Virus record (IMG/VR): IMGVR_UViG_3300013094_000275 | Span: 1-24,391 of that record | Direction: 5' to 3' (one strand) | Length of the DNA: 24,391 bases | Origin: a virus | In this document: one piece after another, positions 1,290 through 24,391 of the stretch | Position numbering within the stretch: the first letter of the stretch is position 1 | Layout of the letters: each line of letters begins with the position of its first letter | Notes under the pieces: generated by a model | Database searches by the model: none | Told to the model about the DNA's origin: nothing | What the model saw: only the letters and a program-made list of their open reading frames with translations | Position numbers and translations under genes: made by a program

Positions 1290-2606
1290 ATGGCAACAGA
1301 AACATCAGATGCTCAGCAACAAGGTTCGACTACTGGTAGTGACTATAAATTAAATGTTTATGTCTTAACTAGTGATGGACACACATTCACTATCTCCAAT
1401 ATCGTATTAAATTTTAATCTGTACGAGAGCATATTTTCTCCATATGTGACTGGGGATATTGAGATTGGTGATGCTGCGGATATTCTCTCGAATTATTCTT
1501 TTAATGGAAATGAGTATCTTTATGTGACTCTTGAGAAGCCAGGGGTTACTACATTTCTTCCAATTCAAAAATACTTTAGAGTATATAAAGTTGCAAACAG
1601 AAGAACCAAAACGCAATCACTTCAAACATACACTATTCATTTTTGCTCGGAAGAATTAATTCTATCGACTCAAATGCTAATTAGAAAATCATATAAAGGT
1701 TTGCCAATTAGTGGGATGATTTCTGACATCGTTAAGAACATTCTTCAGGCTTCCCCAGATAAATTGAATGGATCATTATCTGAGACTTCTGGTAATTTTG
1801 ACATTATAATCCCAAGAATGCAACCATTTGAAGCCATAAGTTGGCTAAAGAGCAGAGCATATGGTAACGGCAAGACGGCATTTTTCTTTTGGGAAAATAA
1901 ATTTGGATATAATTTAGTTTCTTATGAGGATTTATTGGCACAAACACCATATAGAACATACGACAAAGCCCCAAAGGTTACAATTGACCCATCAGATGTT
2001 CAAAGTTCCTTAAATTATGTTGCCTTTGGTGAAGAATTCGACATCATTAAAGGCAACAGATATGGCGCATTCTCAACATCATTATTGACTTATGATATTC
2101 TTTCCAGAAAGTTCGCCAAGACTACTTTGGCTGCTCCTGATCTAGATTTACAAAGAAGTTTCTTAAATAAGTTTCCTCCTGCGAATTTTAGTCAGAATAG
2201 ATTTAAGAAAACATTATTTGATAATGACGAATCTATGCAAAAATTTTATATTACATCCGACTCGGATCCTAATGCAAATCCAGCATCTCCTCAATCTTGG
2301 TTACTACAACAAGCAATCAAGTTAGCTGAATTGAATGCATTAAAGGCAGTAATCAACGTTCCTCTAGATCCAAATATAACTGCTGGACATTTAGTCACAT
2401 TAAATTTACCATTAATGCGTCCGCAAGATCAAGCATATACTGCTGATAAATATAAGAGTGGTAATTATCTTGTCGCATCAGTACACCATGGAATTAGCGG
2501 AGATATGGCATCAACCACAATAGAATTATTAAATGATTCCCTTGGCGCACAGCTTCCATCTGCTGCTGTTTTTTCTGGCACATTACAAGATTTCGCGAAG
2601 GGTTAA
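1290..2606 (+). CDS. gp27: Baseplate hub protein, gp27-like
   Basis: A 438-residue protein lying directly before the spike gene; T4 gp27 is 391 aa. The N-terminal part ('YKLNVYVLTSDGHTFTISNI', 'ESIFSPYVTGDIEIGDAADI') has the pattern of the tube-like hub domain of gp27/gpD proteins: a strand pair, then 'P..xG.I.I.D', then a 'G.E.L.V....P' strand. The C-terminal part has 'ITAGHLVTLNLPL', 'SGNYLVASVHHGIS' and 'STTIELLNDSLGA', typical of the end of gpD/gp27 hub proteins. In this family a trimer joins the six-fold tail tube to the three-fold spike. Family assignment is by pattern and neighbourhood rather than by a strong signature. No SD sequence is obvious before the ATG, 7 bases after the gene 53 stop. 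Confidence 0.66.
   Translation: MATETSDAQQQGSTTGSDYKLNVYVLTSDGHTFTISNIVLNFNLYESIFSPYVTGDIEIGDAADILSNYSFNGNEYLYVTLEKPGVTTFLPIQKYFRVYKVANRRTKTQSLQTYTIHFCSEELILSTQMLIRKSYKGLPISGMISDIVKNILQASPDKLNGSLSETSGNFDIIIPRMQPFEAISWLKSRAYGNGKTAFFFWENKFGYNLVSYEDLLAQTPYRTYDKAPKVTIDPSDVQSSLNYVAFGEEFDIIKGNRYGAFSTSLLTYDILSRKFAKTTLAAPDLDLQRSFLNKFPPANFSQNRFKKTLFDNDESMQKFYITSDSDPNANPASPQSWLLQQAIKLAELNALKAVINVPLDPNITAGHLVTLNLPLMRPQDQAYTADKYKSGNYLVASVHHGISGDMASTTIELLNDSLGAQLPSAAVFSGTLQDFAKG
2598..2602 (+). promoter_or_regulatory. Shine-Dalgarno site of the gp5 gene
   Basis: AAGGG ends 6 bases before the first of two consecutive ATG codons (2609 and 2612). The spacing favours 2609 as the start. The site overlaps the end of the preceding hub gene, so the two are probably translated in concert. 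Confidence 0.6.
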
Positions 2607-2608
2607 TT

Positions 2609-4702
2609 ATGATGATTGAGAAGAATTTTGCTGGCTCAGATGGGTTTTACTGGTGGATAGGCGTCGTCGAAAACCGTCTAGATCCCCTTGAGCTTGGAAG
2701 ATGTCAGGTTAGATTTTTTGGTTATCATTCTGATTCTTTAACTGATATTCCATCTAAAGATTTGCCTTGGGCAATCCCAATGCAAGCTATAAACACTCAT
2801 GCATTCGCAACTCCAAAAGAAACAGATGTTGTGTTTGGATTTTTCGCTGATGCAGGTAGCAAACAATTTCCCATAATGATGGGAACAATCCCTGGAATTC
2901 AAACTAATCCTAAGAATACTGGCGCAGGATATAATGATCTCAGAGATGGACCAACGGTAATTCGTTATGCTCCGAAATACCTCGTTAATAGAAAATATAA
3001 CAAAGATGGTACAGGTATACAATTAACGGAAGCTAATACGCCGAATGTGGAAGTTCAAGAATCATTAAGATATCCTAGAGATTTTGAGCTTAATAAATCT
3101 ACAATCTCAGGTGTCGTGACTTATCAGCCAATGGCAAATAATGTCATTTCAGCAAGACAAAATAATTTAGATCTTGGTGTCGAGACAGCAAATGGTGTTT
3201 CTTGGGATGAACCATACCCAGCCTATAATCCACTGTATCCATACAACCAAGCAACAGAAACGGAATCTGGACATGTATTTGAATTAGATGATACTCCAAG
3301 AAATGAACGAATTTCTATGAACCATCGTTCAGGTACATATTGGGAAATGCGCCCTGATGGAACAAAAGTCCAAAAGGTGACGAAATCAAATTATCAAGTT
3401 GTCATGGGAGATGACTTTCTTCATGTTATGGGATTTGTGAATATTACTGTAGATTCCGCTGCGAGAATTAAAGTATTAGGTGATGTTAATTTAGAAATTG
3501 GAAACAATCTAAACGCCCAGGTTTCTGAGAATATCAATTTAACTGCTGGTGGAGAATTCAATATAAAGGCAGAATCAATTAATATTGATATTGCGAAAGA
3601 TGCTACATTGGTCACTGGTGGTTCTCAATTCTTAACTTCCCAGGACAATATTAACATAAAAACTAATGCTGGTTTGCTGAGTAGCGCAGGTGGGAATATT
3701 GATTTAGATGCAGGTGGAAACATGAATGCCACTGGCGGTGGTGATGTCAACATTCTTTCGGGCGGTGATGCTAATATGCAAGCTGGCGGTAATGCTAATA
3801 TTCTTGGTGGGAAGGTCAATCTTAATTCTGGTGGATCCGCTGGTCAAGCTGCAGCAGCTGCTGATGGAGTAGTGACTGGGTTAGCTCCCGCTAATCCACC
3901 ATCTACACCTAATCATGCTGATATTCCGATCCCAGCCACACCCGTTCCTCTTCAATACAGTGTTGGTGGGAATGGTGCAATATTGAATCCATATACTGGT
4001 GTGGCTGCAAAACAAGATTCTCAATTAGTTACCAATCCTGCTGATCCCGATGGTCCTAAAGTTGAACCACCCCCACCAGCAAACGCAGTCCCACAGGCTT
4101 GTAATTTTGATCCTAGCGCACACACTTGGATTCCAAAAGCTGAATGGAAAGCCAGTTCCGCTGTAATTGATCTAATCCGCAAAAGTGAAGGATATGCTGA
4201 CCAAAGCGGCAAGTATGGCGCCAAACCTCCATATTACCCACCAAAGGTCAAGGGCTACCCTGATCCTGCAACCAAGGCAGAGCCGATCACAGCTGGTTAT
4301 GGGACGACTACTGTGGCACTTTCTCAGACCAAGTATGCACAAACTATCACATATGATACTGTAATAGATCAGGCTACTGCGGATGCTTGGGTACTTGAAA
4401 TTATTAACACAGTTGTAATTAAATTTATCAAACAGTATCAAAGCAACGACACACTCACACAAGGCATGATTGATGCACTTTGCGATTTTGCCTGGGGTGG
4501 CGTCGGACTTTATAAGAATTCCTCAATCAGAACTAAGTTGGCTGCGAAAGATTATTGCGGAGCTGCTGATGGATTCCTCCTTTATCAATATGCACCATTA
4601 CCAAAGGGTGCTCCCGATATTCCAGGAAATCCACCTGGTAAACAAATAATGAAAGGTCTGCAAATTAGAAGACAGAATGAAAGAACTCTCTTCTTATCAT
4701 AA
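2609..4702 (+). CDS. gp5: Baseplate central spike with C-terminal GH24 lysozyme (gp5-like)
   Basis: A 697-residue spike protein (T4 gp5 is 575). Residues about 15-100 form the gp5/VgrG-type OB domain ('NRLDPLELGRCQVRFFGYHS', 'DLPWAIPMQAI', 'PIMMGTIPG'). Residues about 220-410 are beta-helix: 'TESGHVFELDDTP', 'YWEMRPDGTK', then many short 'GGNxxLxAGG' repeats. Residues 411-505 are a Pro/Ala-rich linker. Residues about 506-697 are a T4-lysozyme-type GH24 domain: 'IRKSEGY' (E527), 'YPDP' (D552), 'ITAGYGTT' (T561), 'QGMIDALCDFAWGGVG', 'GLQIRRQNERTLFL'. E527/D552/T561 correspond to the Glu-Asp-Thr triad of T4 lysozyme, with about 16 extra residues between Glu and Asp. T4 gp5 has the order OB, lysozyme, beta-helix; here the lysozyme comes last. 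The predicted role is tail spike that punctures the outer membrane and cuts peptidoglycan. It follows the hub gene by 2 bases. Confidence 0.9.
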   Translation: MMIEKNFAGSDGFYWWIGVVENRLDPLELGRCQVRFFGYHSDSLTDIPSKDLPWAIPMQAINTHAFATPKETDVVFGFFADAGSKQFPIMMGTIPGIQTNPKNTGAGYNDLRDGPTVIRYAPKYLVNRKYNKDGTGIQLTEANTPNVEVQESLRYPRDFELNKSTISGVVTYQPMANNVISARQNNLDLGVETANGVSWDEPYPAYNPLYPYNQATETESGHVFELDDTPRNERISMNHRSGTYWEMRPDGTKVQKVTKSNYQVVMGDDFLHVMGFVNITVDSAARIKVLGDVNLEIGNNLNAQVSENINLTAGGEFNIKAESINIDIAKDATLVTGGSQFLTSQDNINIKTNAGLLSSAGGNIDLDAGGNMNATGGGDVNILSGGDANMQAGGNANILGGKVNLNSGGSAGQAAAAADGVVTGLAPANPPSTPNHADIPIPATPVPLQYSVGGNGAILNPYTGVAAKQDSQLVTNPADPDGPKVEPPPPANAVPQACNFDPSAHTWIPKAEWKASSAVIDLIRKSEGYADQSGKYGAKPPYYPPKVKGYPDPATKAEPITAGYGTTTVALSQTKYAQTITYDTVIDQATADAWVLEIINTVVIKFIKQYQSNDTLTQGMIDALCDFAWGGVGLYKNSSIRTKLAAKDYCGAADGFLLYQYAPLPKGAPDIPGNPPGKQIMKGLQIRRQNERTLFLS

Positions 4703-4733: not shown

Positions 4734-5150
4734 ATGGCATTAGATACCACCAAAGTACCGTCGAATATTACCAGAATCTTTACCGATTTTGATGTGAGTT
4801 TTACTCCCCATCCAGTGACTGGTGATATCAACATGGTCACTGGGACCAATTCAGTAGTCCAATCATTAATGAATTTGGTACAACTAAATAGTTATGAGAA
4901 GCCATTTCACCCAGAAATAAGTTCTGGAATAAGATCCCTTTTGTTTGAACAAATGGATTCTATTGTGGCAGCTTCATTGAAGAAAGAAATTGTGATTTTA
5001 ATTGAGAATTTTGAGCCAAGAGTTCAGATTATTGATGTTGATGTTTCGCCAGATTATGTTAATAATCAGTTTAATGTTACGATAGAGTTTTATGTATTGA
5101 ATAACACGCTTCCGATAACAATATCCGCTTACCTACAAAGAGTTAGATAA
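4734..5150 (+). CDS. gp25: Baseplate wedge subunit gp25
   Basis: A 138-residue protein (T4 gp25 is 132) of the gpW/gp25 family, whose members are conserved in contractile tails and type VI secretion. Family hallmarks are visible: 'NSVVQSLMNLVQLNSYEKPF', then 'HPEISSGIRSLLFE', a helix, and the 'FEPRVQI' element (EPR at residues 94-96). A final beta strand pair ends in 'ISAYLQRVR'. gp25 joins the wedge core and contacts the sheath. Its TAA stop shares its last A with the ATG of the gp6 gene (TAATG), which predicts translational coupling of these two wedge partners. A late-promoter-like box lies upstream. Confidence 0.94.
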   Translation: MALDTTKVPSNITRIFTDFDVSFTPHPVTGDINMVTGTNSVVQSLMNLVQLNSYEKPFHPEISSGIRSLLFEQMDSIVAASLKKEIVILIENFEPRVQIIDVDVSPDYVNNQFNVTIEFYVLNNTLPITISAYLQRVR

Positions 5151-7222
5151 TGGCAAATACCAGCCAAATACAATTAAGTAGTTTAGATTTTGACTCAATT
5201 AAGCAAAATCTTATTACCTATTTACAGAGTCAATCCCAATTTCAGGATTATAATTTTCAAGGTTCAGCACTCAATATTCTTTTAGATGTGCTTTCATATA
5301 ATACATTTTATAATGCATTTTATATGAATATGATTGCGAATGAAATGTTCCTAGACACTGCTATTATGAGATCTTCCGTTGTTTCTCAAGCCAAAGCTCT
5401 TGGATATACTTCCAGATCAGCAGCTTCTGCCCGAGCCACACTAAATGTGACAATCACAAGAGCAGTTAGTGACTCAACTACAAGTTTATATCTTCCAAGA
5501 TTTACTCAATTTGCAGCCCAGTCGTTAAATGGTAAATCGTTTTCATTCTACACCACAGATGATTCTCCATATGTATCAAATGTTTCAGTTGGAACAGCGA
5601 ATACATTTACATTCAACTATTTAAATGTGAATGAAGGAACTCCAGTAACCAAACAATTTGGTGTAAATAATACAACTAATCCTTCTCAGACATTTGATTT
5701 GGTTGATTCTAATATTGATTTGTCGACTCTTAAGGTTACTGTACAGAACTCATTAACGAGTCCAGTATTGACCATCTATAATCTTGCACAAGATGCAACT
5801 CAAGTTTCTGCTAACTCTAATGTATATTACGTTGAAGAAGGCAGTAATTTAAATTACTTAATTTATTTCGGCGATGGTGTTCTCGGAAGGAAATTACCTG
5901 ACCAGAGTATCATTACTGTCAGTTATTTGGTTACAAATAGTGATCTCGCTAATGGATTGGGAACATTCTTTCTTCAAACATCAATTCTTAATGGATCAAC
6001 ATCAAATGTCTCCACTTCTTCCGCATCCGCAGGTGGAGCACAACAAGAGTCAATTAATAGTATAAAATTTTCTGCTCCTAAATCATTTATTGCACAAAAT
6101 AGAATTGTCACTAAAAATGATTATATAACTCAGATTAATAAAAATTATCCTTATTTTGATGCAGTCGCAGTATGGGGAGGGGAAAATCAATCCCCTCCTA
6201 TTTTTGGAAAAGTTTATATCTCAGCTAAACCTAAGAATGGATATACTGTCACCCTAGATCAACAAAATTATTTAATTAATGATATTTTAAAACCATTAAG
6301 TGTTCTGACTGTCACCGCTAGTTATGTTCCAGCAGATTATGATTTCTTAAATTTTAATGTTGGATTTAAATATGATCCAACCCAAACTAATCTTTCTCAG
6401 AATCAACTGTCAACATTAGTCGCAAATTCAATTGCTACATTCTGTAATACCAATTTAAATACATTTAACTCATCTTTCGCTTATTCTAAATTCTTAGGTG
6501 CGATTGATGGTACTGATCCGTCCATTCAATCTTCATCAGCAACAATATATTTGCAGAAACAATTTTATCCATTGCTTGGACAAACCTCATCATATAACTT
6601 GAAATTTGGCACGCCTCTTCATCAGGGTATAACTAATGATAGATTATATTCTTCCCCTTATTTTGAATCGCCAGATTCTGCTGGAAATTCGCAGCAATGC
6701 TATTTAGAAGAAACACCATTTGGGTTTGGTGCGATTGGCAGCATCACTATAGAAAGCCCAGGATATAATTATACTTCTGCCCCCACAATACAGATTCAAG
6801 GGGATGGACTTGGGGCGAATGCTTATCCTATTATTGTTAATGGACAGATAAATTCAGTAGTTGTTGATGTATCTGGAAATAATTACACAACAGCCGCAAT
6901 TACATTGATTGGTGGAGGAGGAACAGGTGGAGTATTAGTTCCAGTGATTAGCGGATCAAAGGGAACTATTAGATCGTATTATTTTGATACAAATAATATT
7001 AAGCAAATTTTAAATCCAAATGTGGGGACTATTGATTATTTGAATGGAATTATTAATATCAATAATTTGTATATTACTAATGTTGGTGGTCTCCAAGAAG
7101 TTCTTTCAATTTTTGCTCAACCATATAACAGTAATTTCGCATCAAACAATGAAATTATATTAACGTATAATCAGAATGATTCAACAGCTCTTTCAATTAC
7201 ACCAAGTATGATTAGTACATAA
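5150..7222 (+). CDS. gp6: Baseplate wedge subunit gp6
   Basis: A 690-residue protein (T4 gp6 is 660), the wedge subunit that forms the inner ring of the baseplate. The N-terminus has the conserved run 'LDFDSIKQNLITYL', 'FQGSALNILLDVLSYN', 'ANEMFLDTAIMRSSVV', 'AKALGYTSRSA'. The mid-protein motif 'AVWGGENQSPPIFGKVYIS' (from about residue 340) is shared with T4-like gp6 proteins. Residues about 530-602 form a Gly-rich double repeat of the type 'SPGYNYTSAPTIQI...G' that is also found in gp7, gp8 and the 1094-residue protein, and looks like an added module. The start overlaps the gene 25 stop by one base; no independent SD is needed. Confidence 0.93.
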   Translation: MANTSQIQLSSLDFDSIKQNLITYLQSQSQFQDYNFQGSALNILLDVLSYNTFYNAFYMNMIANEMFLDTAIMRSSVVSQAKALGYTSRSAASARATLNVTITRAVSDSTTSLYLPRFTQFAAQSLNGKSFSFYTTDDSPYVSNVSVGTANTFTFNYLNVNEGTPVTKQFGVNNTTNPSQTFDLVDSNIDLSTLKVTVQNSLTSPVLTIYNLAQDATQVSANSNVYYVEEGSNLNYLIYFGDGVLGRKLPDQSIITVSYLVTNSDLANGLGTFFLQTSILNGSTSNVSTSSASAGGAQQESINSIKFSAPKSFIAQNRIVTKNDYITQINKNYPYFDAVAVWGGENQSPPIFGKVYISAKPKNGYTVTLDQQNYLINDILKPLSVLTVTASYVPADYDFLNFNVGFKYDPTQTNLSQNQLSTLVANSIATFCNTNLNTFNSSFAYSKFLGAIDGTDPSIQSSSATIYLQKQFYPLLGQTSSYNLKFGTPLHQGITNDRLYSSPYFESPDSAGNSQQCYLEETPFGFGAIGSITIESPGYNYTSAPTIQIQGDGLGANAYPIIVNGQINSVVVDVSGNNYTTAAITLIGGGGTGGVLVPVISGSKGTIRSYYFDTNNIKQILNPNVGTIDYLNGIININNLYITNVGGLQEVLSIFAQPYNSNFASNNEIILTYNQNDSTALSITPSMIST
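6176..6198 (+). other. Perfect GC-rich inverted repeat with T-run inside gene 6
   Basis: GGAGGGGA (6176-6183) pairs perfectly with TCCCCTCC (6191-6198) around a 7-base loop and is followed at once by TATTTTTG. This has the form of an intrinsic terminator or RNA-stabilising hairpin, within the coding part for the conserved 'WGGENQSPPIFG' motif. It may simply result from codon choice for Gly-Gly and Pro-Pro. Confidence 0.4.
6737..6955 (+). repeat. G-x-x-Y beta repeat module in gp6
   Basis: Two consecutive units of the form 'V/I-strand, PGYNY..APTIQI, GDGLGAN' and 'VVVDVSGNNYTTAAITLIGG' cover residues about 530-602. Related units occur in gp7 (residues about 281-325, 551-576, 610-688), gp8 (272-350) and the 1094-residue protein (833-850). 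Confidence 0.65.
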
Positions 7223-7226
7223 TACA

Positions 7227-10200
7227 ATGACAACTTTATCGAATGGCACCTCAGTACTAATTGATAGTCAAATTCCAGAGTTCATTTCTTCTAATGATCC
7301 GAATTTTAGTGCATTTTTAAAAGCATACTATCAGTGGTTAGAAAATAGTCAATATTCAGCTAATGGTGGTGGGGTATTATATCAGACTAAGAATCTTTTA
7401 AGTTATAAAGATATTGACACCACAACTGATCAATTTATTCAATATTTTATTAATGACTTTCTTCCATATTTCCCTCAAGAGATCGTAGCCGATCAGAAAA
7501 AATTAATTAAAGTTGCTAAAGACTTTTATGCAACAAAAGGAAGTGAGAATTCCCTTAAGTTTCTTTTTAGAGTTCTATATGGGTTAGACTCAGAAGTATT
7601 TCTACCTAAAGAAAATATCTTAAAGGCATCAGATGGTAAATGGCAGATTCCACAAGCACTAAGACTTGTTCTCAGTGCAACAAATACAAATTTTGATGTC
7701 ACTCAATTAACCAAAAGAATCGGCTATGGTTCTCAGTCTAATGCATCTTGCGTTATTGAGTCCGCATCACACACAGTTGATGATACTCTCGGAATTCCGA
7801 TTGTTGAAATTTATGTCTCAAATATAAACAGAACATTCGCTGCGGAAGAAAACTTAGTCGTTACTGGAAATTATACTGGAAATGGCGCACCATTTATATT
7901 TTCTGAGAAAATTATTGGATCAATTTCTAATTTGGTAATTAATCCCAAGTATCAGGGATTAAAGTATAATTCCGGAAATACATCAAATGGTTATCCTGGA
8001 GACCCAGTTGTTTTCTATGGTGGATTAGCTGCAACTGCTCAAGCTCAAAAAGCAGTTGCATATGTGGGAAATGTTACAGTCGGATCAATTTCTGGCGTGT
8101 CCGTAATTGCAGGTGGATTTGGGTATTCCACATTCCAAAATACAATCGTGACAATTGTTGGTGGTCCTTCCCTTGGTAATGGTGGAGCAAATGTTGTCGT
8201 CCAGACAGCAAATCTTACATCTAATATTAGCACTTCTAATATTGCTATTGAATTTATTGCCCCATCAATTATAACATTTGCTCAGAGTGTTTATTCAATT
8301 AATCTTGTGAGTGCGTCCGGAACAACCAACCAAACTGTTAATTTAAATTGCGCAACACTTCAAGCAAATACCACTATTCCGAATTTCTATAAAGGATATA
8401 TCCTTCAGGTTGTTGATGGAACTGGTGCAACAGCATCGCCAAACACAGCATTTATTTCTACTTATAGTAATACAAGTTATATTGCAACACTTCAATCGCC
8501 TTATCTTGGCGCATCACTTGATGCCACAAGTAATATTAGGCTGTATGCAGTAAAAAATTCTGGATTTGGTAATACTGTAATTTCAATTAACAACACAGTT
8601 GGAGCAGGAAACACAACTCAACGAATAAATCTATACTCAACAGGATATTCAGCCTCACCAACGGCTGGGGCGTATAATAATTCTGTTCTTACTTATGTTG
8701 GAGGAAGTGGCTCTGGAGGAGCAGCATTAATAACTGCATATGCAGGATCACCAACTTATCTTGCCAATATAATTCCAATCCCAGGAACTGGTTCCCTTAC
8801 TGCAGCAACTGGAACGACTAATGTTCAAATATCTTATGCGAATTCTGCAACACCAATCGGTACAGCACTTTCCTTTAAAAATGTTGCAGTAGGAAGCATA
8901 ACTTCTTTTAATGTGATCAATGGTGGATATGGTTATCAATCAGTTCCTACTCTTTCAATAGATTCAACTTATGAGACGGATTATTCTATTGGAGAATATT
9001 TGGCTGGTGATATTAATAATTATTTAATCACAAGACAACATATCAAAGATCTTGGTTTTGTGGCTAATGTCAGTGTAATCAATGGAGGGAGAAATTACAG
9101 CCCAGGCTCAGACACCATAATGCTAAACTCAGCATATGGGTATGGCGCAACATTCAGTTTTACCACAGATGGTAATGGATCAATAACTACAGTCACTGTT
9201 ACTAATGCTGGAGAGGGATACCAACCACCAATCTACAATATCCCAGTGACCATCACATCATCAACGGGTTCGGGTGCAAATTTAGTTGCATTCGGACTCA
9301 ATGAAGGTGATTATGAATCAGTTTCAGTTTCTGATATTGGTAGAATACTTGACTTTAAATTAATCAGTCGAGGATTCGATTATGCAACTACACCAAATGT
9401 TTCCTTAAAAATAGTTGATGTCATTCTTAATACTAATGTGGCTTCTAATGGAACAATAGGAATAGGAAATACGACTACTAGTGTTAATTTGTACAGCACA
9501 GGATTTACTCCCAGTAAGATTAATAATTTTTATATTGGAAAGACTTTACAAATTCTCACAGGAACAGGTGCATCTGGTTCACCAAATAGCGCAGTAATCT
9601 CTGCATATAATGGGACCACTGGTGTAGCTGCTCTTGCGACAGCTTTAGGAACTGCTCCTGGAACTACAAGCAATATCGCAATTTATAATGCTAATGTGGA
9701 TTTCTCTGTATTAAATATGTATGAGGGTGACTTTGTGTATCAGGGATTAGATCCTGGTAACACTTCCTTCATTGGATATCTAGACAGCTTCGGATCAAAA
9801 TATTCGTATAATGGTAATCCTTCTTTGTCTGCTAATTCTGGCGTTAGATTATATAATTTTTCTGGCTCAATTAACACTTCTCAGAATCTAGTATTTTCTA
9901 ATTCTGGAGTCAGCTTCACACCAACAAACTTTAATATCTATGGTAACGCACAAGCAAAAGCAAATGCAATATTCTTAAATGGACTAATTCAATATCCTGG
10001 TTATTACTTGAACACAGACGGACAACCAAGCGCGGATCAATTCCTACAAGCGAATACGAAATATCACAACTTTGCTTATGTCGTTCAGGTTGAAAAGGCA
10101 TTAACTGAATATAAAAATACATTAATGAATATACTGCATCCTGCTGGTATGGAAATGTTAAATGACATGGTCATTAATGATGCTAAGTATTCCCAAGTTT

Positions 10201-12876: not shown

Positions 12877-15800
12877 ATGTTGGATTTTAATGTCGCGCCA
12901 TATTATGATGATTTTGATGCAACAAACGGAGCATTAGTCAATAACTACATGCGCATTCTGTTTAAGCCTGGATATGCTGTTCAGGCTCGCGAATTAACTC
13001 AGACTCAGTCAATCCTTCAAAACCAAATTAAATCTTTTGCTGATAATATTTTCAAAAATGGAACCCCAGTTTCTGGTGGACACTTGACTTATGACACTAA
13101 TGTCACGTCAATCCAACTATCTCCAACTCAAGCCAACACACCAATCTCATTAAATGATTTTAATCAAACACTTATTACAAATGCAAACACCACAGTCCTA
13201 CAAAAAGCTGTTGTTGTAACTGTTGATGACAGTCTACAGAGCAACACTTCCGCTGGTGCTATTGTTGTCAAATATTTAACAGGAATTCAATTTGCATTAG
13301 GCGATACAATCACCACTGCTAATCCTTCTGGTATTCAATATTCCGCAACTATTTTGTCTTCAAATACAGTAGCAACCAATAATCTGGCGATCTCCAAAGG
13401 TTCCGTTGTCAGTATCAATCCTGGAATATTTTATGTAAATGGTTTTTTTATTAATGTCCCAACTCAAACAATTGTATTAGATTCTCAAGACACTTATCCG
13501 TCATATAGAATTGGTCTTCAGGTAGCGGAAGGGGTTGTTAACTATTCAACGGATTCTGCATTATTAGACCCTGCTCAAGGATCGTTCAACTATCAGGCTC
13601 CAGGTGCAGATCGTTATCAATATAACTTAGTTCTATCTAAGCGCAGTTTGAATTCAATTGATGACTCATCATTTTTTGAATTGATGAGAATTGAAAATGG
13701 AGTGATAACAAGCCAAGTTGATTATCCTCTTTATGGTTCAATCGGCGATCAAATGGCCAGAACTGTATATGATCAGTCAGGCGACTTTACAATCAGTCCG
13801 TTTTTGTTGACAATTAAAGACAATACAGTTTATTACCCTAATGGTGTGGCAGATCCCGCCAATACCAACACTTATATTATGTCTTTATCTTCTGGTAAGG
13901 CATATATTGAGGGATATGAATTCCAAACGCTTGGTTCAGTCTCAATGACAAACCAAAAAGCGAGATCTTCAAATACTTCCATAAACTATAATCTTGCATT
14001 AGATTTCGGAAATTATATAGTTGTGAACAATGTTCATGTCGGTAATACTTCCGCAAATGCTACATTGAATATTGCAGGATATACCGCATTCGATTTACAT
14101 TGTGTCCCATCTGCTCAGATTAATACCAAAAATCAGATTTCTTATTATTCTAATACAGTAATTGGAACAGCTAAACTCCGCGATATTGAATGGGCTGGAT
14201 ATAGTGCATCCACAACAACATACTATGCTTATCTGTTAGATGTGAATGTTTCTGGATTGTCAGGAAATGCGAATGGTAATATTACCGCTTTCCCAGGGAA
14301 AAGTGCAGCTAATACAGAATTGATTGTTCTTCCAACTACTTTCCCAAATACTGCGAATTATGTTGGTAAAACTATTAGTGTTATTGCTGGTAATTGCTCA
14401 GGTGATATTAAGACAATTAGTGCATATGATTCTGTTAATAGTATTGCCACAATAACAACATTCTTCTCACAGCTCCCAGACTCAAACACTAAGTTCACAA
14501 TTCCATTCTCAATTGGAGACGTAAGTGCATTAGCTGTCAAGCCTGCATATTTTGCAGCAAATGGTATCATTTCTCCAAATGTAACAGGCAATGTTTATGC
14601 AACTCAGAATGTAAAATCTCCATTCTATCCAGTCATGGATATTGATATTACTGGTAGACAGCCTGTGTTGGCTAATGGCAAAACTACTCTTTATGAATCA
14701 TCAGTCAATACTCTAATCTATGAATTGCCACAATCTTATGTTGTTCAAAATTCAATCCAGGACGTCACATTTTATAGTAGAAAATTCATATCAGGCGTAT
14801 CATTTAATGCCGCTGGTAATGCTGATATTTCAAATACATTTAGCGCAACTGAGACTGTCTCATTTGGGTATACTAATGCATACATTCCAGACCTTGTGGC
14901 AAATACAAATGTTATGGTTGTTGTTAGGGACAATACTGCCGCTTCAGTATTTGCAAATGGTTCTATTATATCTTGGGATCGCGGAAGTACTGGGGGATCT
15001 ACCAGTAGTAATGGTGTGTATGAAACTGGTCCTCAGGCATTAACTCTACACTGCGCTCATACTGGTGCTGGTAGTAATGCATTTATTGGTGATGTTATTC
15101 TGACTGTTCAAGAAAATGCTGGAACTACAGCATCAAGAAGAGCAAAATATGCATATGGTAACACATCAAATACCACTCTAGCCACAACGGACGTTCCGAC
15201 GAATGGCACCGCAATTGTTGGAAGTGCAAATACTAGTGGCATCACAGTTCCCAATTCTGTATTCTTAGATGCAGCTAATGGTTATTTGTGGTTTACTGAT
15301 ACTAGCGTCATATTTAAAACAGCTGGAAGTATACAGAGTTTATATGTTCCGGATGTTGTTCAAATTATTAAAATTTATGATTCCGGAAGTCCAGCATATG
15401 CGCCTAATGTTTCAAATACTTTAGTTGATGTGACGGGTAGTTATAACTTTTTTCCAAATCAGAAAGACAGTTATTATGATCATTCATATATCTCATTAAA
15501 GAGCGGATACCCAACCCCTCAGGGTCAAATTGTTGTGATGTTTAAATATTTTAACCATGCGACCACAACGGGATTTTTTACTGCAAATTCTTATCCTGCT
15601 TCTGATTATGCGTCTGGATTAATTCCATATTATTCATCCGCATCAGCAGGAACTGTTGCTCTACGAGATTGTATTGACTTTAGACCCACAAGGGCAAATG
15701 GTGTTGCTGCTAATGTTCAGTCATATTCTTTCCAAGGGTCTATGACTCCTAATCCGAATAATCCAATGGTTCTGACATATGATTATTATTTACCAAGAAT

Positions 15801-16968
15801 TGATAAATTAGTATTGACTAAAAATAAACAATTTAGAATAATTAGTGGTGTGCCATCAACAAGACCACTGGCACCAGATGATGCATCTGATGCGATGACT
15901 TTATATCAGATATACAATCCACCTTATACTGATAACATTAATGATATCAATAAGACCTATATTGATCATCGTAGATATACTATGAAAGATATCGGGAGTC
16001 TTGATAAGAGAATCACCAATCTTGAATATTATGTGACGCTCACACAACAGCAGCAGCAAGCTGTTAATCAGACAGTAACGTACTCGGATGGATCAACACC
16101 TAAATCAACATTTGGAGTTGTGACTGATTCTTTTACTGATTTTAGTATTGCTGATAATGGAAGTAGTGATGTGATTTGCTTTATTAATGGAGGAACACTA
16201 AAACCATTCCACCATAAAACAACTTTAGGATTTAATTTCGCTAATGCGAGCGGACCATATTTGATTAATAGCAAAACATACTCATTATCATATACGGAAT
16301 ATCCTGCTGTTGTGCAAAACACTTATACTGGAACAGCAACAGTTCAGCCATATGGATTTGGACAGTTTGTTGGAGAAATGAGTTTAACGCCTCAAACTGA
16401 TTATTTCTATAGTACAGCACTCGTTCCTCAATATGTAGCACCGATTGTGCCTGCACCACCTCCTCCACCGCCACCGCCTCCAGTGATTGTTAACATATAT
16501 GTGCCTGTGCCAGGACCACCAGTTCCAGGACCACCAGGACCACCAGGACCGACTGGACCAACAGGACCAACGCCGCCGATTCCACCCCCAGCACCTCCTG
16601 TTATAACGAATCCACCAACACCTCCACCAGCTAACCCACCATCGCCGCCGATTAAGTTACCTCCACCGCCCTACATTCCAACGCCACCACCACCGATTAT
16701 TTCAGCATCGGCTGATAATGAGGCAACGGAAAATCCAACACAGCCAGATAATGATACTGGAACTGTTCCTACGCTACCCTTCACCCCAGTTCCAGTAGTT
16801 CCTGCTGGATATGGGACAGGAATTGTGCCACCAGTACCGCCGCCAGTACCGCCGCCACCTCCACCTGCTCCTGCGACCCCAGTGTTAATATTGAGTAGTG
16901 GTGGGGGTGGATTTTCTACGGGAGGTGGTGGTGCTAGCAGCACTCAGTTTAGAACACTCTCAAAATAA
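12877..16968 (+). CDS. DUF4815-type virion protein with polyproline/collagen-like tail
   Basis: A 1363-residue protein. The N-terminus 'LDFNVAPYYDDFDATNGA', 'ILFKPGYAVQARELTQTQSI', 'LQNQIKSFADNIFKNGTPV' is the signature of the DUF4815 family, recalled from T4-like cyanophages, where members are structural proteins placed after gene 8. A beta module related to those in gp7 lies near residues 465-545. 'YYDHSYISLKSG' and 'ALRDCIDFRPTR' lie near residues 870-935. The last 180 residues are unusual: nine consecutive Pro (1194-1202), five Gly-X-Y triplets (1218-1232), further Pro-rich runs, an acidic Asn/Asp/Glu patch, and a GGGG-F-STGGGG end. The SD 'TAAGGT' (12864-12869) overlaps the gene 8 stop. 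By position it may do the work of T4 gp9/gp10 (outer wedge, fibre attachment); this is inference, so no symbol is given. Confidence 0.8.
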   Translation: MLDFNVAPYYDDFDATNGALVNNYMRILFKPGYAVQARELTQTQSILQNQIKSFADNIFKNGTPVSGGHLTYDTNVTSIQLSPTQANTPISLNDFNQTLITNANTTVLQKAVVVTVDDSLQSNTSAGAIVVKYLTGIQFALGDTITTANPSGIQYSATILSSNTVATNNLAISKGSVVSINPGIFYVNGFFINVPTQTIVLDSQDTYPSYRIGLQVAEGVVNYSTDSALLDPAQGSFNYQAPGADRYQYNLVLSKRSLNSIDDSSFFELMRIENGVITSQVDYPLYGSIGDQMARTVYDQSGDFTISPFLLTIKDNTVYYPNGVADPANTNTYIMSLSSGKAYIEGYEFQTLGSVSMTNQKARSSNTSINYNLALDFGNYIVVNNVHVGNTSANATLNIAGYTAFDLHCVPSAQINTKNQISYYSNTVIGTAKLRDIEWAGYSASTTTYYAYLLDVNVSGLSGNANGNITAFPGKSAANTELIVLPTTFPNTANYVGKTISVIAGNCSGDIKTISAYDSVNSIATITTFFSQLPDSNTKFTIPFSIGDVSALAVKPAYFAANGIISPNVTGNVYATQNVKSPFYPVMDIDITGRQPVLANGKTTLYESSVNTLIYELPQSYVVQNSIQDVTFYSRKFISGVSFNAAGNADISNTFSATETVSFGYTNAYIPDLVANTNVMVVVRDNTAASVFANGSIISWDRGSTGGSTSSNGVYETGPQALTLHCAHTGAGSNAFIGDVILTVQENAGTTASRRAKYAYGNTSNTTLATTDVPTNGTAIVGSANTSGITVPNSVFLDAANGYLWFTDTSVIFKTAGSIQSLYVPDVVQIIKIYDSGSPAYAPNVSNTLVDVTGSYNFFPNQKDSYYDHSYISLKSGYPTPQGQIVVMFKYFNHATTTGFFTANSYPASDYASGLIPYYSSASAGTVALRDCIDFRPTRANGVAANVQSYSFQGSMTPNPNNPMVLTYDYYLPRIDKLVLTKNKQFRIISGVPSTRPLAPDDASDAMTLYQIYNPPYTDNINDINKTYIDHRRYTMKDIGSLDKRITNLEYYVTLTQQQQQAVNQTVTYSDGSTPKSTFGVVTDSFTDFSIADNGSSDVICFINGGTLKPFHHKTTLGFNFANASGPYLINSKTYSLSYTEYPAVVQNTYTGTATVQPYGFGQFVGEMSLTPQTDYFYSTALVPQYVAPIVPAPPPPPPPPPVIVNIYVPVPGPPVPGPPGPPGPTGPTGPTPPIPPPAPPVITNPPTPPPANPPSPPIKLPPPPYIPTPPPPIISASADNEATENPTQPDNDTGTVPTLPFTPVPVVPAGYGTGIVPPVPPPVPPPPPPAPATPVLILSSGGGGFSTGGGGASSTQFRTLSK
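16426..16968 (+). other. Segment encoding polyproline, collagen-like and Gly-rich tail
   Basis: The segment encodes residues about 1184-1363. The order is: Pro9 run (16456-16482), 'VIVNIYVPVPGPPVP', five uninterrupted Gly-Pro-(Pro/Thr) triplets (16528-16572), repeated 'PPxP' stretches, an acidic spacer, a second Pro-rich run near 16828-16880, and two Gly4 blocks. Pro codons are mixed, so selection acts on the protein rather than on a recent DNA expansion. The composition differs sharply from all other genes in the window. Confidence 0.85.
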
Positions 16969-20514: not shown

Positions 20515-23500
20515 ATGGCAAACGCAAATCTTACTGTAATTCAATACGCAAATACATTTGACGATTGGCGTATTATAACAAACAATCTTTCAAATACAAT
20601 AAACCAAATAAGAAATGGAATTTTTGTTATAGATGGTGGTGATACTATCTATGCTGCTGGTTCCCCTGGTTTACAAATTCAGAATTCTACTGGGACAGTT
20701 TTAACTGTTGCGGGTAATTCTAACTTTACAGGAATATCCACGACAAAGATTGTTAATGCTGGCGACATCACTTCCGATGGTATAAACGCAATCTATTCCA
20801 ATACTAATGTTTTACTCCAAGTAGCCAATACAGCTCAAACTAAGAACCTAATTTCAAATAATTTTGCTTGGATGCAGAATGTTAATGTTACTGGGTATGC
20901 AGTCTACACTGGCACAGTCACAGGTAATGCCCCATATATCGCCCTTCTTGGCGCGAATGCAGTATTCAATATTGCTAATGGTGTGTTAATTTCAAATACT
21001 GGTAATGTGATTGTATCGAATACCTTATATGCGCGTGCTCCTACTGGTTATGGTCTTAATGTATCATCGAACACATTTACTGGAAATATAACCATAGGAT
21101 TAACTGCTGGTCTTGGTGCTAATGCCAATGTATTTGGTTCTGGTAATATTGCAACCACATTGGATGTCGGTGGAAATGCTACTTTATTTTCCAATTTAAC
21201 TGTTTCTAAGAACGCAACCGTCTCATTAAATGCGAATGTTACAGGCACATTAAATGTTAATTCTCAGTTTGACGTTATGGCGAATGCCAATCTCCACTCA
21301 AACTTAAATGTTGTTTGGAACACAAGTACTGGAAATGCATCGGTTGTTCAAAATACCTCTACTGGTAATATATCAGTCGCCCAGAACACAAGTACTGGCA
21401 ATTTAACTGTCACGCAGAACACTAGTTCTGGTAATAGTTCAACAAGTAACTTGACTGTTTCGCAGAATACTTCTACTGGTAATTTGACTGTTACACAGAA
21501 CACTAGTTCTGGTAATTTAACTGTCGCTCAAAATACATCCACTGGAAATATTAATGTTTCTATATTAGCTAATATTTCGAACATAGACATTTCTAATGGC
21601 ACACTAGCCTCACCATCATTCGCATTTGGAGCCAGTCAGGGAACTGGTATCTTTATGCCAGCAGCTAATGTATTATCCATAACATCAAATGCCAATTCTA
21701 TCATTAATGTTGCACAAACAAGCGTTAATGTCTTTACTGTATTAAATGTTACAAGTAATATTGCAAACACTGGAAACTTATTCGTCACTCAGAATACTGG
21801 AACTGGTAATTTAGCTGTTACTCAGAACACAAGTACTGGTAATTTGTCTGTTACGACATTAGCCAATGTGACCCAATTAAATGTCTCCGCTAATATTGCG
21901 AATACTGGCAATCTTTTAGTCTCTCAAAATACATTTACAGGAAATCTCGGAGTAACTCAAAACACAAGTACTGGTAATTTAACTGTTACTCAGAATACAG
22001 GTTCAGGTAACATATCAGTCACCCAGAATACTTCTACAAGTAATCTATCAGTTTCACAGAATACAACTACTGGTAATATATCAGTCACCCAGAATATTAG
22101 TTCTGGTAACAGTTCAACAAGCAACTTAACTGTTTCGCAAAATACTTCTACTGGTAATATATCAGTCACCCAAAACACAAGTACTGGCAATTTATCCGTA
22201 ACTCAAAATACAAGCACAGGAAACCTGACGGCTTCTGGTAATGTAAGTGTTACTCAAAATACAAGTACTGGCAATTTAACTGCTACTCAGAACACAAGCA
22301 CAGGAAACCTGACAGCTTCTGGTAATGTGAGTGTTACTCAAAATACAAGTACTGGCAATTTATCCGTAACTCAAAATACAAGCACTGGTAATCTGACAGC
22401 TTCTGGAAATTTAACTGCCGCGCAGAATACATCAACTGGTAATTTATCCGTAACTCAAAATACAAGCACTGGTAATCTGACAGCTTCTGGTAATGTGAAT
22501 GTCACTCAAGGAATTACAGTATCCAATACTACTTCTGGTAATGGTATTGTTGCTGCCACTTCAACCATTTATGGTAATAATATAGTTGCATTGAGTAATG
22601 TGTTTGCTACCAATGTCAATTCAACTAACCTGATAGTGACTTCTAACGCGACCATACAGACTGCTAATATCTCGACTTTAAATGTGAATGCGTCTGGTGC
22701 ACTAATAACTGCTAATTCAATAATAGTATCAAATATCACAACAGTTAATGCTGCGATTCAAAGTGCTAATATTTATGTTCAAGCTAATTTAAATTCAGCT
22801 AATATATTAACAGCAAACGTACTTACTTTAAATGCTAATTCTATTGGAGCTCTTGTTTACGCTAACGTAATCAATGTGCAAAACGTATTTGTTCAAAATA
22901 GCAACACTAATAATGCAACTATTAACATTGCTAATGTGTATGGACAATTACTTGCAGCAAATATTACCATCACTACTGCAAATATTCAAACTCTAAATGT
23001 AAATGCTGCTAGTGCCACGATCTACTCAAATACATTAATTGCGACTAATGTTACAATCATTAGGGAGAATGTCACATCAGCTAATATACTAACAGCCAAT
23101 ATTGCTACTCTTAATGTCAATGCTGCTGGTGCATTAATAATTGCTAATTCAATAATAGTCTCAAATAGTAATACGCAAAATGCTAATATTGTGTTTACTA
23201 ATATTTCAAATGCAAATATAACATCTACTAATGTAGGAACTTTAAATGTATTCGGTTCAATTACCACTACAAATCTAGTTCTTGATACTGCTGCTACTTA
23301 TAGTGTATTGCAAGGTAACGCTACATTCAATAATTTGACAATTAGAGGAAATCAGGTTCTTGTTGGAAATACTTTAATCAATAGCCCACAAATTATTTTA
23401 AGCAACAATGCAGTTGGACCAGGACAAGGTAACGTAACAATCTATCAAGGCGGTGGCGCAGTTGGCAATGCTGTTATTCAATATTCTTATATTCCTGGCG

Positions 23501-24391
23501 TTTGGCAAGTAACACCAAATACTTCTATTGCTGCAAATGGTGGCGGATTCCAAACAATATTGACAACTGGTAATGTTTCGGATTCAGTCACCACTACTTC
23601 TTCAGTTAATGTCGCCTCATTGACGGCAGTCAATACATCTTGGTCCGCAGTTACCGCAATTTATGGCTCTGCTAACTTAAACTTTGCTTCAGCTAATGCT
23701 GCTTTTGCCAATATCAATACGAATATGACTGCTGCTAATAGTGGATTGACTGCTGCGAACTCAGCAATAGCATCCGTTAATGCTGCTATCGCCAATATCA
23801 ATACCAACATGACGTCAGCGAACTCAGCGATCGCTTCTGTGAATGCCGCGATTGCCAACATTAATACAAACATAACAGCAGCAAACTCTGGATTGTCAAC
23901 AACTAATACAACTTTTGCTACTGTCAATACTACGTTCGCAACAATCAATACCAACATGACGTCAGCGAACTCAGCGATTGCTTCGGTTAATGCTGCTATC
24001 GCAAATATCAATACAAACATAACAGCAGCAAACTCTGGATTGTCAACAACTAATACAACTTTTGCTACTGTCAATACCACATTTGCATCAATTAATACCA
24101 ACATGTCTGCTGCGAACAGTGCTATTGCCTCCGTAAATGCTGCGATTGCTAATATTAATACTAATATGTCTTCTGCAAACAGTGCGATTGCATCTGTTAA
24201 TGCAGCAATAGCAAATATTAACACTAATATAACAGCAGCAAACTCAGGATTGACAACTACCAATACCACCTTTGGTACGATGAACACGACGTTCTCGACA
24301 ATAAACGCATTAATGACTGTTGCTAATAGTTCTATTACGAACTTAAACAGTTCAATGACTTCTGCGAACTCAGCGATAGCATCTGTTAATG
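20515..24391 (+). CDS. Giant repetitive tail-fibre protein (3' end outside window)
   Basis: The frame from the ATG at 20515 has no stop up to the window end: 1292 codons plus one base. Residues 1-60 ('IQYANTFDDWRIITNNLSNT', 'INQIRNGIFVIDGGDTIYAA') resemble the baseplate-proximal start of T4-like marine-phage tail fibres ('F.W...TN....INTLRNG'). Residues 60-265 contain strand-turn units of the 'GNITIG' kind. Residues about 268-665 hold repeats with core 'QNTSTGNLTVT'. Residues 690-920 hold looser repeats ('TANIxTLNVNA'). Residues about 955-1005 ('PQIILSNNAVGPGQGNVTIY', 'VWQVTP') resemble the 'IxLN...VxRG..A.LxWN...W.F' unit of such fibres. From about 1062 a heptad stalk begins. Composition is dominated by Asn, Thr, Ser, Ala and Val, with very few charged residues. 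The receptor-binding tip lies beyond the window. Trimeric assembly is inferred. Confidence 0.88.
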   Translation, partial: MANANLTVIQYANTFDDWRIITNNLSNTINQIRNGIFVIDGGDTIYAAGSPGLQIQNSTGTVLTVAGNSNFTGISTTKIVNAGDITSDGINAIYSNTNVLLQVANTAQTKNLISNNFAWMQNVNVTGYAVYTGTVTGNAPYIALLGANAVFNIANGVLISNTGNVIVSNTLYARAPTGYGLNVSSNTFTGNITIGLTAGLGANANVFGSGNIATTLDVGGNATLFSNLTVSKNATVSLNANVTGTLNVNSQFDVMANANLHSNLNVVWNTSTGNASVVQNTSTGNISVAQNTSTGNLTVTQNTSSGNSSTSNLTVSQNTSTGNLTVTQNTSSGNLTVAQNTSTGNINVSILANISNIDISNGTLASPSFAFGASQGTGIFMPAANVLSITSNANSIINVAQTSVNVFTVLNVTSNIANTGNLFVTQNTGTGNLAVTQNTSTGNLSVTTLANVTQLNVSANIANTGNLLVSQNTFTGNLGVTQNTSTGNLTVTQNTGSGNISVTQNTSTSNLSVSQNTTTGNISVTQNISSGNSSTSNLTVSQNTSTGNISVTQNTSTGNLSVTQNTSTGNLTASGNVSVTQNTSTGNLTATQNTSTGNLTASGNVSVTQNTSTGNLSVTQNTSTGNLTASGNLTAAQNTSTGNLSVTQNTSTGNLTASGNVNVTQGITVSNTTSGNGIVAATSTIYGNNIVALSNVFATNVNSTNLIVTSNATIQTANISTLNVNASGALITANSIIVSNITTVNAAIQSANIYVQANLNSANILTANVLTLNANSIGALVYANVINVQNVFVQNSNTNNATINIANVYGQLLAANITITTANIQTLNVNAASATIYSNTLIATNVTIIRENVTSANILTANIATLNVNAAGALIIANSIIVSNSNTQNANIVFTNISNANITSTNVGTLNVFGSITTTNLVLDTAATYSVLQGNATFNNLTIRGNQVLVGNTLINSPQIILSNNAVGPGQGNVTIYQGGGAVGNAVIQYSYIPGVWQVTPNTSIAANGGGFQTILTTGNVSDSVTTTSSVNVASLTAVNTSWSAVTAIYGSANLNFASANAAFANINTNMTAANSGLTAANSAIASVNAAIANINTNMTSANSAIASVNAAIANINTNITAANSGLSTTNTTFATVNTTFATINTNMTSANSAIASVNAAIANINTNITAANSGLSTTNTTFATVNTTFASINTNMSAANSAIASVNAAIANINTNMSSANSAIASVNAAIANINTNITAANSGLTTTNTTFGTMNTTFSTINALMTVANSSITNLNSSMTSANSAIASVN
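21316..21561 (+). repeat. 33-bp tandem repeats in fibre gene, block 1
   Basis: Units begin at 21316, 21349, 21382, 21415, 21463, 21496 and 21529. All are 33 bp except the one at 21415, which is 48 bp (16 residues, 'SSGNSSTSNLTVS'). The 11-residue unit is (Q/W)-N-T-S-(T/S)-G-N-x-(T/S)-V-x. Synonymous codons differ between units. Confidence 0.9.
21790..21855 (+). repeat. 33-bp tandem repeats in fibre gene, block 2
   Basis: Two units (21790 and 21823) of the same 11-residue repeat, flanked on both sides by 'NVxxNIANTGNL' segments that also lead into block 3. Confidence 0.85.
21925..22509 (+). repeat. 33-bp tandem repeats in fibre gene, block 3
   Basis: Unit starts run 21925, 21958, 21991, 22024, 22057, 22090 (48 bp), 22138, 22171, 22204, and then alternate 51 and 33 bp to 22506. 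The 51-bp units carry six extra residues of the form 'ASGNVS'. Every length is a whole number of codons. Confidence 0.9.
22204..22506 (+). repeat. 84-bp higher-order repeat in fibre gene
   Basis: Paired units of 51 + 33 bp recur with exactly 84-bp spacing at 22204, 22288, 22372 and 22456, giving three full copies and a 51-bp partial one. The copies are nearly identical as DNA, so this part arose by recent tandem duplication of a two-unit block (28 residues). Confidence 0.88.
23701..24391 (+). repeat. Heptad-phased coiled-coil stalk repeats
   Basis: Two unit types alternate: 21 residues ('NSAIASVNAAIANINTNM', then about T-S-A) and 28 residues ('NSGLSTTNTTFATVNTTF', then 'ATINTNMTSA'). The 'A-N-S' landmark falls at 23737, 23758, 23821, 23884, 23968, 24031, 24115, 24178, 24241 and 24367. 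All spacings are multiples of 21 bp, which is seven codons. Hydrophobic residues (I, V, I, I, M or L, F, V, F, I, M) fall at alternating 3- and 4-residue steps. Confidence 0.85.
23797..24090 (+). repeat. 147-bp tandem duplication in the stalk
   Basis: Sequence at 23797-23943 is repeated at 23944-24090. Within it, 68 consecutive bases are identical (23863-23930 and 24010-24077), as are 35 others (23797-23831 and 23944-23978). The unit equals one 63-bp plus one 84-bp stalk repeat (49 residues, seven heptads). Confidence 0.88.

Follow-up and report, generated by a model that had tools for sequence, protein, structure and literature searches.

The window analysed here is the whole 24,391-nucleotide stretch of the IMG/VR record IMGVR_UViG_3300013094_000275, and it carries baseplate genes in the order gp48-gp53-gp27-gp5-gp25-gp6, followed by gp8-like baseplate genes. 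The gene under study (2609-4702, plus strand) is gp5, a single intact open reading frame of 697 amino acids with an ATG start, and it has the features of the T4 gp5 family, namely an N-terminal OB fold, a gp5-type beta-helix and a position between gp27 and gp25. The genes around gp5 are phage baseplate genes, and gp25 starts 31 bases past the gp5 stop codon, with no open reading frame in the gap. The features of this region are the following:

1290..2606, + strand: gp27-like hub gene, directly upstream of gp5 and separate from it (phrog_350, E 5.8e-77)
2609..2923, + strand: gp5 residues 1-105, OB-fold domain (PF06714, T4 gp5 alignment, AF2 strands 15-93)
2924..3193, + strand: gp5 residues 106-195, spacer, the position of the lysozyme in T4 (no Pfam match; T4 comparison)
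3194..3832, + strand: gp5 residues 196-408, triple-stranded beta-helix (T4 gp5 helix alignment at 188-376, phrog_430)
3833..4123, + strand: gp5 residues 409-505, Pro/Ala-rich linker (composition, low pLDDT, alignment with seven relatives)
4124..4699, + strand: gp5 residues 506-697, GH24 (R/P22-type) lysozyme (PF00959, AF2, Foldseek, tree)
4187..4189, + strand: E527, catalytic Glu (invariant in 8/8 family members)
4196..4243, + strand: insertion of 16 residues separating Glu from Asp, at about 530-545 (four relatives show a gap of 16 here)
4262..4264, + strand: D552, catalytic Asp (invariant in 8/8 family members)
4289..4291, + strand: T561, catalytic Thr (7/8 family members)
4734..5150, + strand: gp25 baseplate wedge gene, directly downstream of gp5 (PF04965)

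Elsewhere in the window, positions 12877-16968 encode a protein of 1363 residues in the baseplate region (DUF4815), whose C-terminus is rich in proline and in part collagen-like (PPPPPPP, GPPGPPGPTGPTGP). An open-ended reading frame at 20515-24391 (at least 1292 amino acids) contains tandem repeats, QNTSTGNLSVT-like 11-mers and then ANSAIASVNAAIANINTNMT-like 21-mers; the product is probably a long fibre or structural protein of repetitive make-up, truncated where the contig stops, and the antisense reading frames found there mirror the repeats.

The OB domain and the beta-helix, which the original prediction had placed at about residues 15-100 and 220-410 of gp5, were both recovered. PF06714 matched the OB at residues 46-111 in the Pfam scan (E 6.6e-5, just below the curated cut-off), the T4 gp5 chain 1pdl aligned with residues 11-110 and 188-376 (whole-chain E 3.3e-25), and phrog_430 matched the beta-helix at residues 184-418 (E 2.4e-76), with weak matches of PF22178 (Gp5_trimer_C) and DUF2345 to the helix region. 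The AF2 model of the full-length monomer was mostly confident for the OB strands (15-93) and the GH24 domain and did not resolve the beta-helix, as expected with a single chain of an intertwined trimer; a Foldseek search with this model ranked T4 gp5 first. Since a second IMG/VR contig (L001) carries the identical gene and further contigs show the same architecture, the fusion is no assembly artefact.

In T4 gp5, PF00959 lies at residues 183-310, with the OB on one side and the helix on the other. The corresponding spacer of the window gp5 (106-195) gave no Pfam match and no domain, i.e., the lysozyme at the T4 position is absent, and the C-terminal domain is therefore the sole recognisable enzyme of the spike. 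The idea that the protein would not need the T4-type maturation cleavage agrees with this, because sequence and model place nothing between OB and helix, so that there is no lysozyme at that site to be cut from the helix.

The helix ends in VNLN, which resembles the V/I-x-L-N/G C-termini of gp5 proteins free of cargo (X1, K364, KVP40 and Mosig). The following linker (409-505, about 97 residues) is 19% Pro and 19% Ala, and pLDDT was below 50 over most of residues 354-472 of the full-length monomer model; together with the domain order read from the sequence, this bears out an enzyme held behind the helix on a flexible Pro/Ala tether, whose length would give the GH24 domain a wide reach. The alignment with seven relatives additionally revealed common islands in the linker, PVPL...NPYTG (445-464) and Cys498, and this conservation argues against a purely passive tether. 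A linker motif pattern run over all gp5 proteins matched three GH24 relatives only and is not general.

At the C-terminus, the complete GH24 domain that had been proposed is predicted with confidence. PF00959 matches residues 549-691 (E 2.3e-9; 38.1 bits against a curated cut-off of 22.3), E527, D552 and T561 are the letters originally named, and an AF2 model of residues 497-697, which covers the claimed domain at 506-697, reached a mean pLDDT of 89 and a pTM of 0.84. Its PDB matches in Foldseek are GH24 endolysins, AbLys1 being the best, with PHAb10 and P22 lysozyme among those that follow. The 16-residue extension between Glu and Asp also proved exact: the distance between the two is 25 in the window, the longest, versus 16 in three relatives and 9 in four. 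On the GH24 tree the window domain has diverged further than any other in its group (end branch 1.52), and it has three loop insertions and AGYG in place of IGYG; given this divergence, the extra loops and AGYG, a reduced or altered activity is possible. One relative (L020, 6546-7028) has Ala at the position of the catalytic Thr, with Glu and Asp kept.

A scan of IMG/VR with the single protein returned nothing beyond the contig with the identical gene and a single distant relative, and alignment queries were needed. Alignment-guided scans of IMG/VR and genome contigs, plus reference phages, gave 147 distinct gp5 proteins, which were picked by likeness to the window, so that frequencies among them are no census. 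The search for other gp5 proteins ending in GH24, suggested with the original prediction, was rewarded by seven further complete IMG/VR cases (L020, L021, L026, L027, L100, L102 and L104) besides the window and L001, and by a truncated one (L110). C-terminal CHAP was found in L022, L023, L025, L112 and L114, C-terminal GH19 in L028, L121, L150 and L097, and C-terminal M15 in L029, L033, L050, L051, L067, L113, L118, L126, L131, L179 and BUCT-ZZ01. These calls come partly from profiles built in this analysis from the gathered sequences; Pfam independently detected GH24 in L020, L021, L026 and L027, CHAP in L025 and L097, GH19 in L028, L097 and BUCT-ZZ01, and M15 in L029, L050, L051, BUCT-ZZ01 and pf16, several of these cargo matches lying below the curated cut-off. 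Judged from sequence, the gp5 carrier is modular, holding CHAP, GH19, M15 or CHAP plus GH19 at the same site as the GH24 of the window, and the common denominator of the cargo enzymes is peptidoglycan cleavage. In the gp5 set examined, enzymes at the T4 position occurred only in T4, Ag3, BUCT-ZZ01 and Cr30.

Several of these loci are noteworthy in their own right. The L097 gp5 (4953-7508) bears two enzymes behind the helix, CHAP ahead of GH19, BUCT-ZZ01 (L004, 3989-6808) combines a central GH19 with a C-terminal M15, and Cr30 (L181, 2998-5103) has a central Phage_lysozyme2 and at its C-terminus matches an M15-carrying query. Besides gp5-GH24, a separate protein is encoded directly downstream in L026 (CHAP, 6978-7751) and L027 (M15, 2105-2869), and a spike region can therefore hold more than one wall enzyme. 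The contig that carries the gp5-M15 locus of L179 was binned as Nitrosarchaeum, which possibly reflects a binning error or a phage of the same habitat. When the gp5 of the window, L026 and L022 were compared with cultured phages by tblastn, no record reached 80% query coverage; the uniqueness that this alone suggested was corrected by the literature and the Pfam scans.

On the gp5-core tree (48 rows) the window falls in a set of seven supported at 100/100, six with GH24 and one, L105, free of enzyme and adjoining the window (92/96). In this window group the fusion is thus not indispensable. L105 (4004-5862) encodes an enzyme-free gp5 of 395 amino acids and then a helical-looking protein of 219 amino acids that ends in a proline-rich stretch, and so lends itself naturally to comparison. 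The CHAP carriers form one clade with an M15 carrier as its sister, and the tree implies nine changes of cargo state versus a minimum of four, gain and loss not being told apart. The GH24 tree, in turn, separates the domains of the window clade together with R/P22-type endolysins from T4 e, T4 and JS98 gp5 and RaK2 gp078 (100/99). Placed in the R/P22-type lineage, the window enzyme was therefore captured independently. That the central tail lysozyme of T4 had instead moved to the end of gp5, producing the present domain order, is a thought naturally raised by both enzymes being GH24 (PF00959); with the 100/99 split, and with no score between the window GH24 and the T4-type group (T4 e, the gp5s and RaK2 gp078) in pairwise searches, we give it almost no credence, and as a source of the domain the tree rules it out. 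Since the GH24 of RaK2 belongs to the other lineage, its fusion is independent of that in the window, and gp5 has gained a C-terminal GH24 at least twice.

T4 gp5 is a cell-puncturing device whose lysozyme opens the wall, and its domains have been described (PMC4576200, PMC3004832). The window protein resembles it (PDB 1k28/1pdl) in OB fold, beta-helix, gene neighbourhood and the carriage of a GH24; in T4, however, the lysozyme stands between OB and helix, belongs to another lineage and is accompanied by maturation cleavage, whereas here it lies past the helix on a long linker. The original prediction missed that the window gp5 is one of a group whose members have swapped enzymes, that its GH24 is of another lineage than the tail lysozyme of T4, and that helix then lysozyme has been published for RaK2-like phages (PMC3622015, PMC5259590). 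RaK2 gp078 was described in 2013 with a helix followed by a C-terminal lysozyme (PMC3622015), and mass spectrometry has identified its homologue CBB_240 in virions (PMC5259590). These proteins of RaK2-like jumbo phages share OB, helix and C-terminal GH24 with the window (the RaK2 order was confirmed in this analysis) but have an extra M23 domain, and their GH24 belongs to the T4 lineage. The gp5 of Sinorhizobium phage phiM12 has OB, helix, linker and a C-terminal muramidase (GenBank note COG4678), although its enzyme matches other endolysin families (phrog_90) and not GH24; likewise, Pseudomonas phage pf16 and the L029 group have OB, helix and a C-terminally fused enzyme, but an M15 peptidase. 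Anabaena phage A-1(L) was discarded as a parallel, its enzymes sitting on the hub and not on the spike (PMC10966104).

A further likeness leads to the evolved VgrGs, spikes with a C-terminal muramidase past the helix. In the type VI secretion of V. cholerae the muramidase of VgrG3cp is active, and those of VgrG3 and VgrG3cp are exchangeable between strains (PMC9927483). In contrast to the window, where the gp27-like gene is separate (1290-2606) within a phage baseplate cluster, an evolved VgrG has the gp27 and gp5 parts fused and acts as a secretion effector with an immunity protein.

Given what the analysis showed on the order of the domains, the fold prediction, the catalytic residues, the neighbouring genes, the recurrence in other contigs and the swapping of enzymes among relatives, we consider it very likely that the window protein is the gp5 central spike of a T4-like contractile-tailed phage, with a tethered R/P22-type GH24 that cuts the wall at entry. 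A muramidase of this type would have been fused past the natural end of the beta-helix through the linker of about 97 residues. In this uncultivated phage gp5 would trimerise and present active GH24 domains at the tip in the virion; upon tail contraction the helix would pierce the outer membrane and carry up to three tethered domains into the periplasm, where they would cut the peptidoglycan surrounding the needle and so let the tube through. The enzyme may thereby reach the peptidoglycan first, as had been proposed.

The GH24 could alternatively be catalytically dead or binding-only and anchor the needle to the wall, to which the high divergence and three loop insertions of the window copy and the Ala at the catalytic Thr of L020 would lend themselves; yet E, D and T are kept in the window, E and D in all eight members, and relatives exchange GH24 for other catalytic domains and not for binding modules, which makes this improbable. 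Still less probable is a domain that is cleaved off the spike, either ahead of assembly or following it, and whose main role is that of an intramolecular chaperone or a lysis enzyme. Other fibrous phage proteins are known to lose a C-terminal chaperone domain by cleavage (PMC4576200), and R-type relatives are lysis enzymes, but four unrelated enzyme folds occupy the site and enzyme-free gp5 proteins exist, so that a common chaperone role is unlikely.

Closest to the preferred reading of a tethered wall-cutting enzyme stands the proposal that the C-terminal domain itself forms or caps the tip, in place of PAAR as the piercing element. No PAAR gene was matched within the 24,391-base record, and the slot is vacant, gp25 beginning 26-83 bases past gp5, in the window, in its nearest kin (L020, L021, L100, L102 and L104) and in the CHAP relatives. 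Against this, PAAR lies beside gp5 in nine relatives with a C-terminal enzyme (L027, L028, L029, L033, L050, L126, L131, L150 and L179), L027 being itself a GH24 carrier, and in most IMG/VR relatives of the L029 group. In the cultured Cr30, too, an annotated PAAR gene stands behind gp5, and this gp5 matches an M15-carrying query almost up to its C-terminus. Cargo thus does not preclude PAAR, and replacement of PAAR, as the original prediction had it, fails as a general rule; what stands is the empty slot in the window subclade. Moreover, many enzyme-free gp5 loci likewise have no PAAR nearby, and contigs such as the present record are genome fragments, whose PAAR may lie elsewhere. We thus regard a tip formed by the enzyme as rather unlikely, and suggest with equal reserve that in the subclade with GH24 or CHAP and gp25 right behind gp5 the enzyme might have displaced PAAR, the tip becoming an exchangeable peptidoglycan-cutter matched to the host wall. 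In Astolliot (L008, 5943-6947), gp5 is enzyme-free and PAAR is fused to an M15 peptidase, this enzyme class being delivered on the cap and not on the spike.

The order helix-then-lysozyme is not new, RaK2 gp078, CBB_240 and phiM12 gp5 having it as well. Among the papers searched we found none on exchange of cargo on the gp5 of this T4-like group, an absence that proves little. We file the window gp5 as a phage counterpart of the evolved VgrGs with exchangeable peptidoglycan-cutting tips. It can now be tested whether the enzyme on the spike is adapted to the host wall and whether the tip is shared, or contested, between PAAR and C-terminal cargo, and the cargo enzymes of gp5 are a source of virion lysins. 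More broadly, with two separate GH24 lineages fused past the gp5 helix, in the window group and in RaK2, and with at least four wall-cutting folds at one site on homologous carriers, the spikes of phages are tied to the evolved VgrGs.
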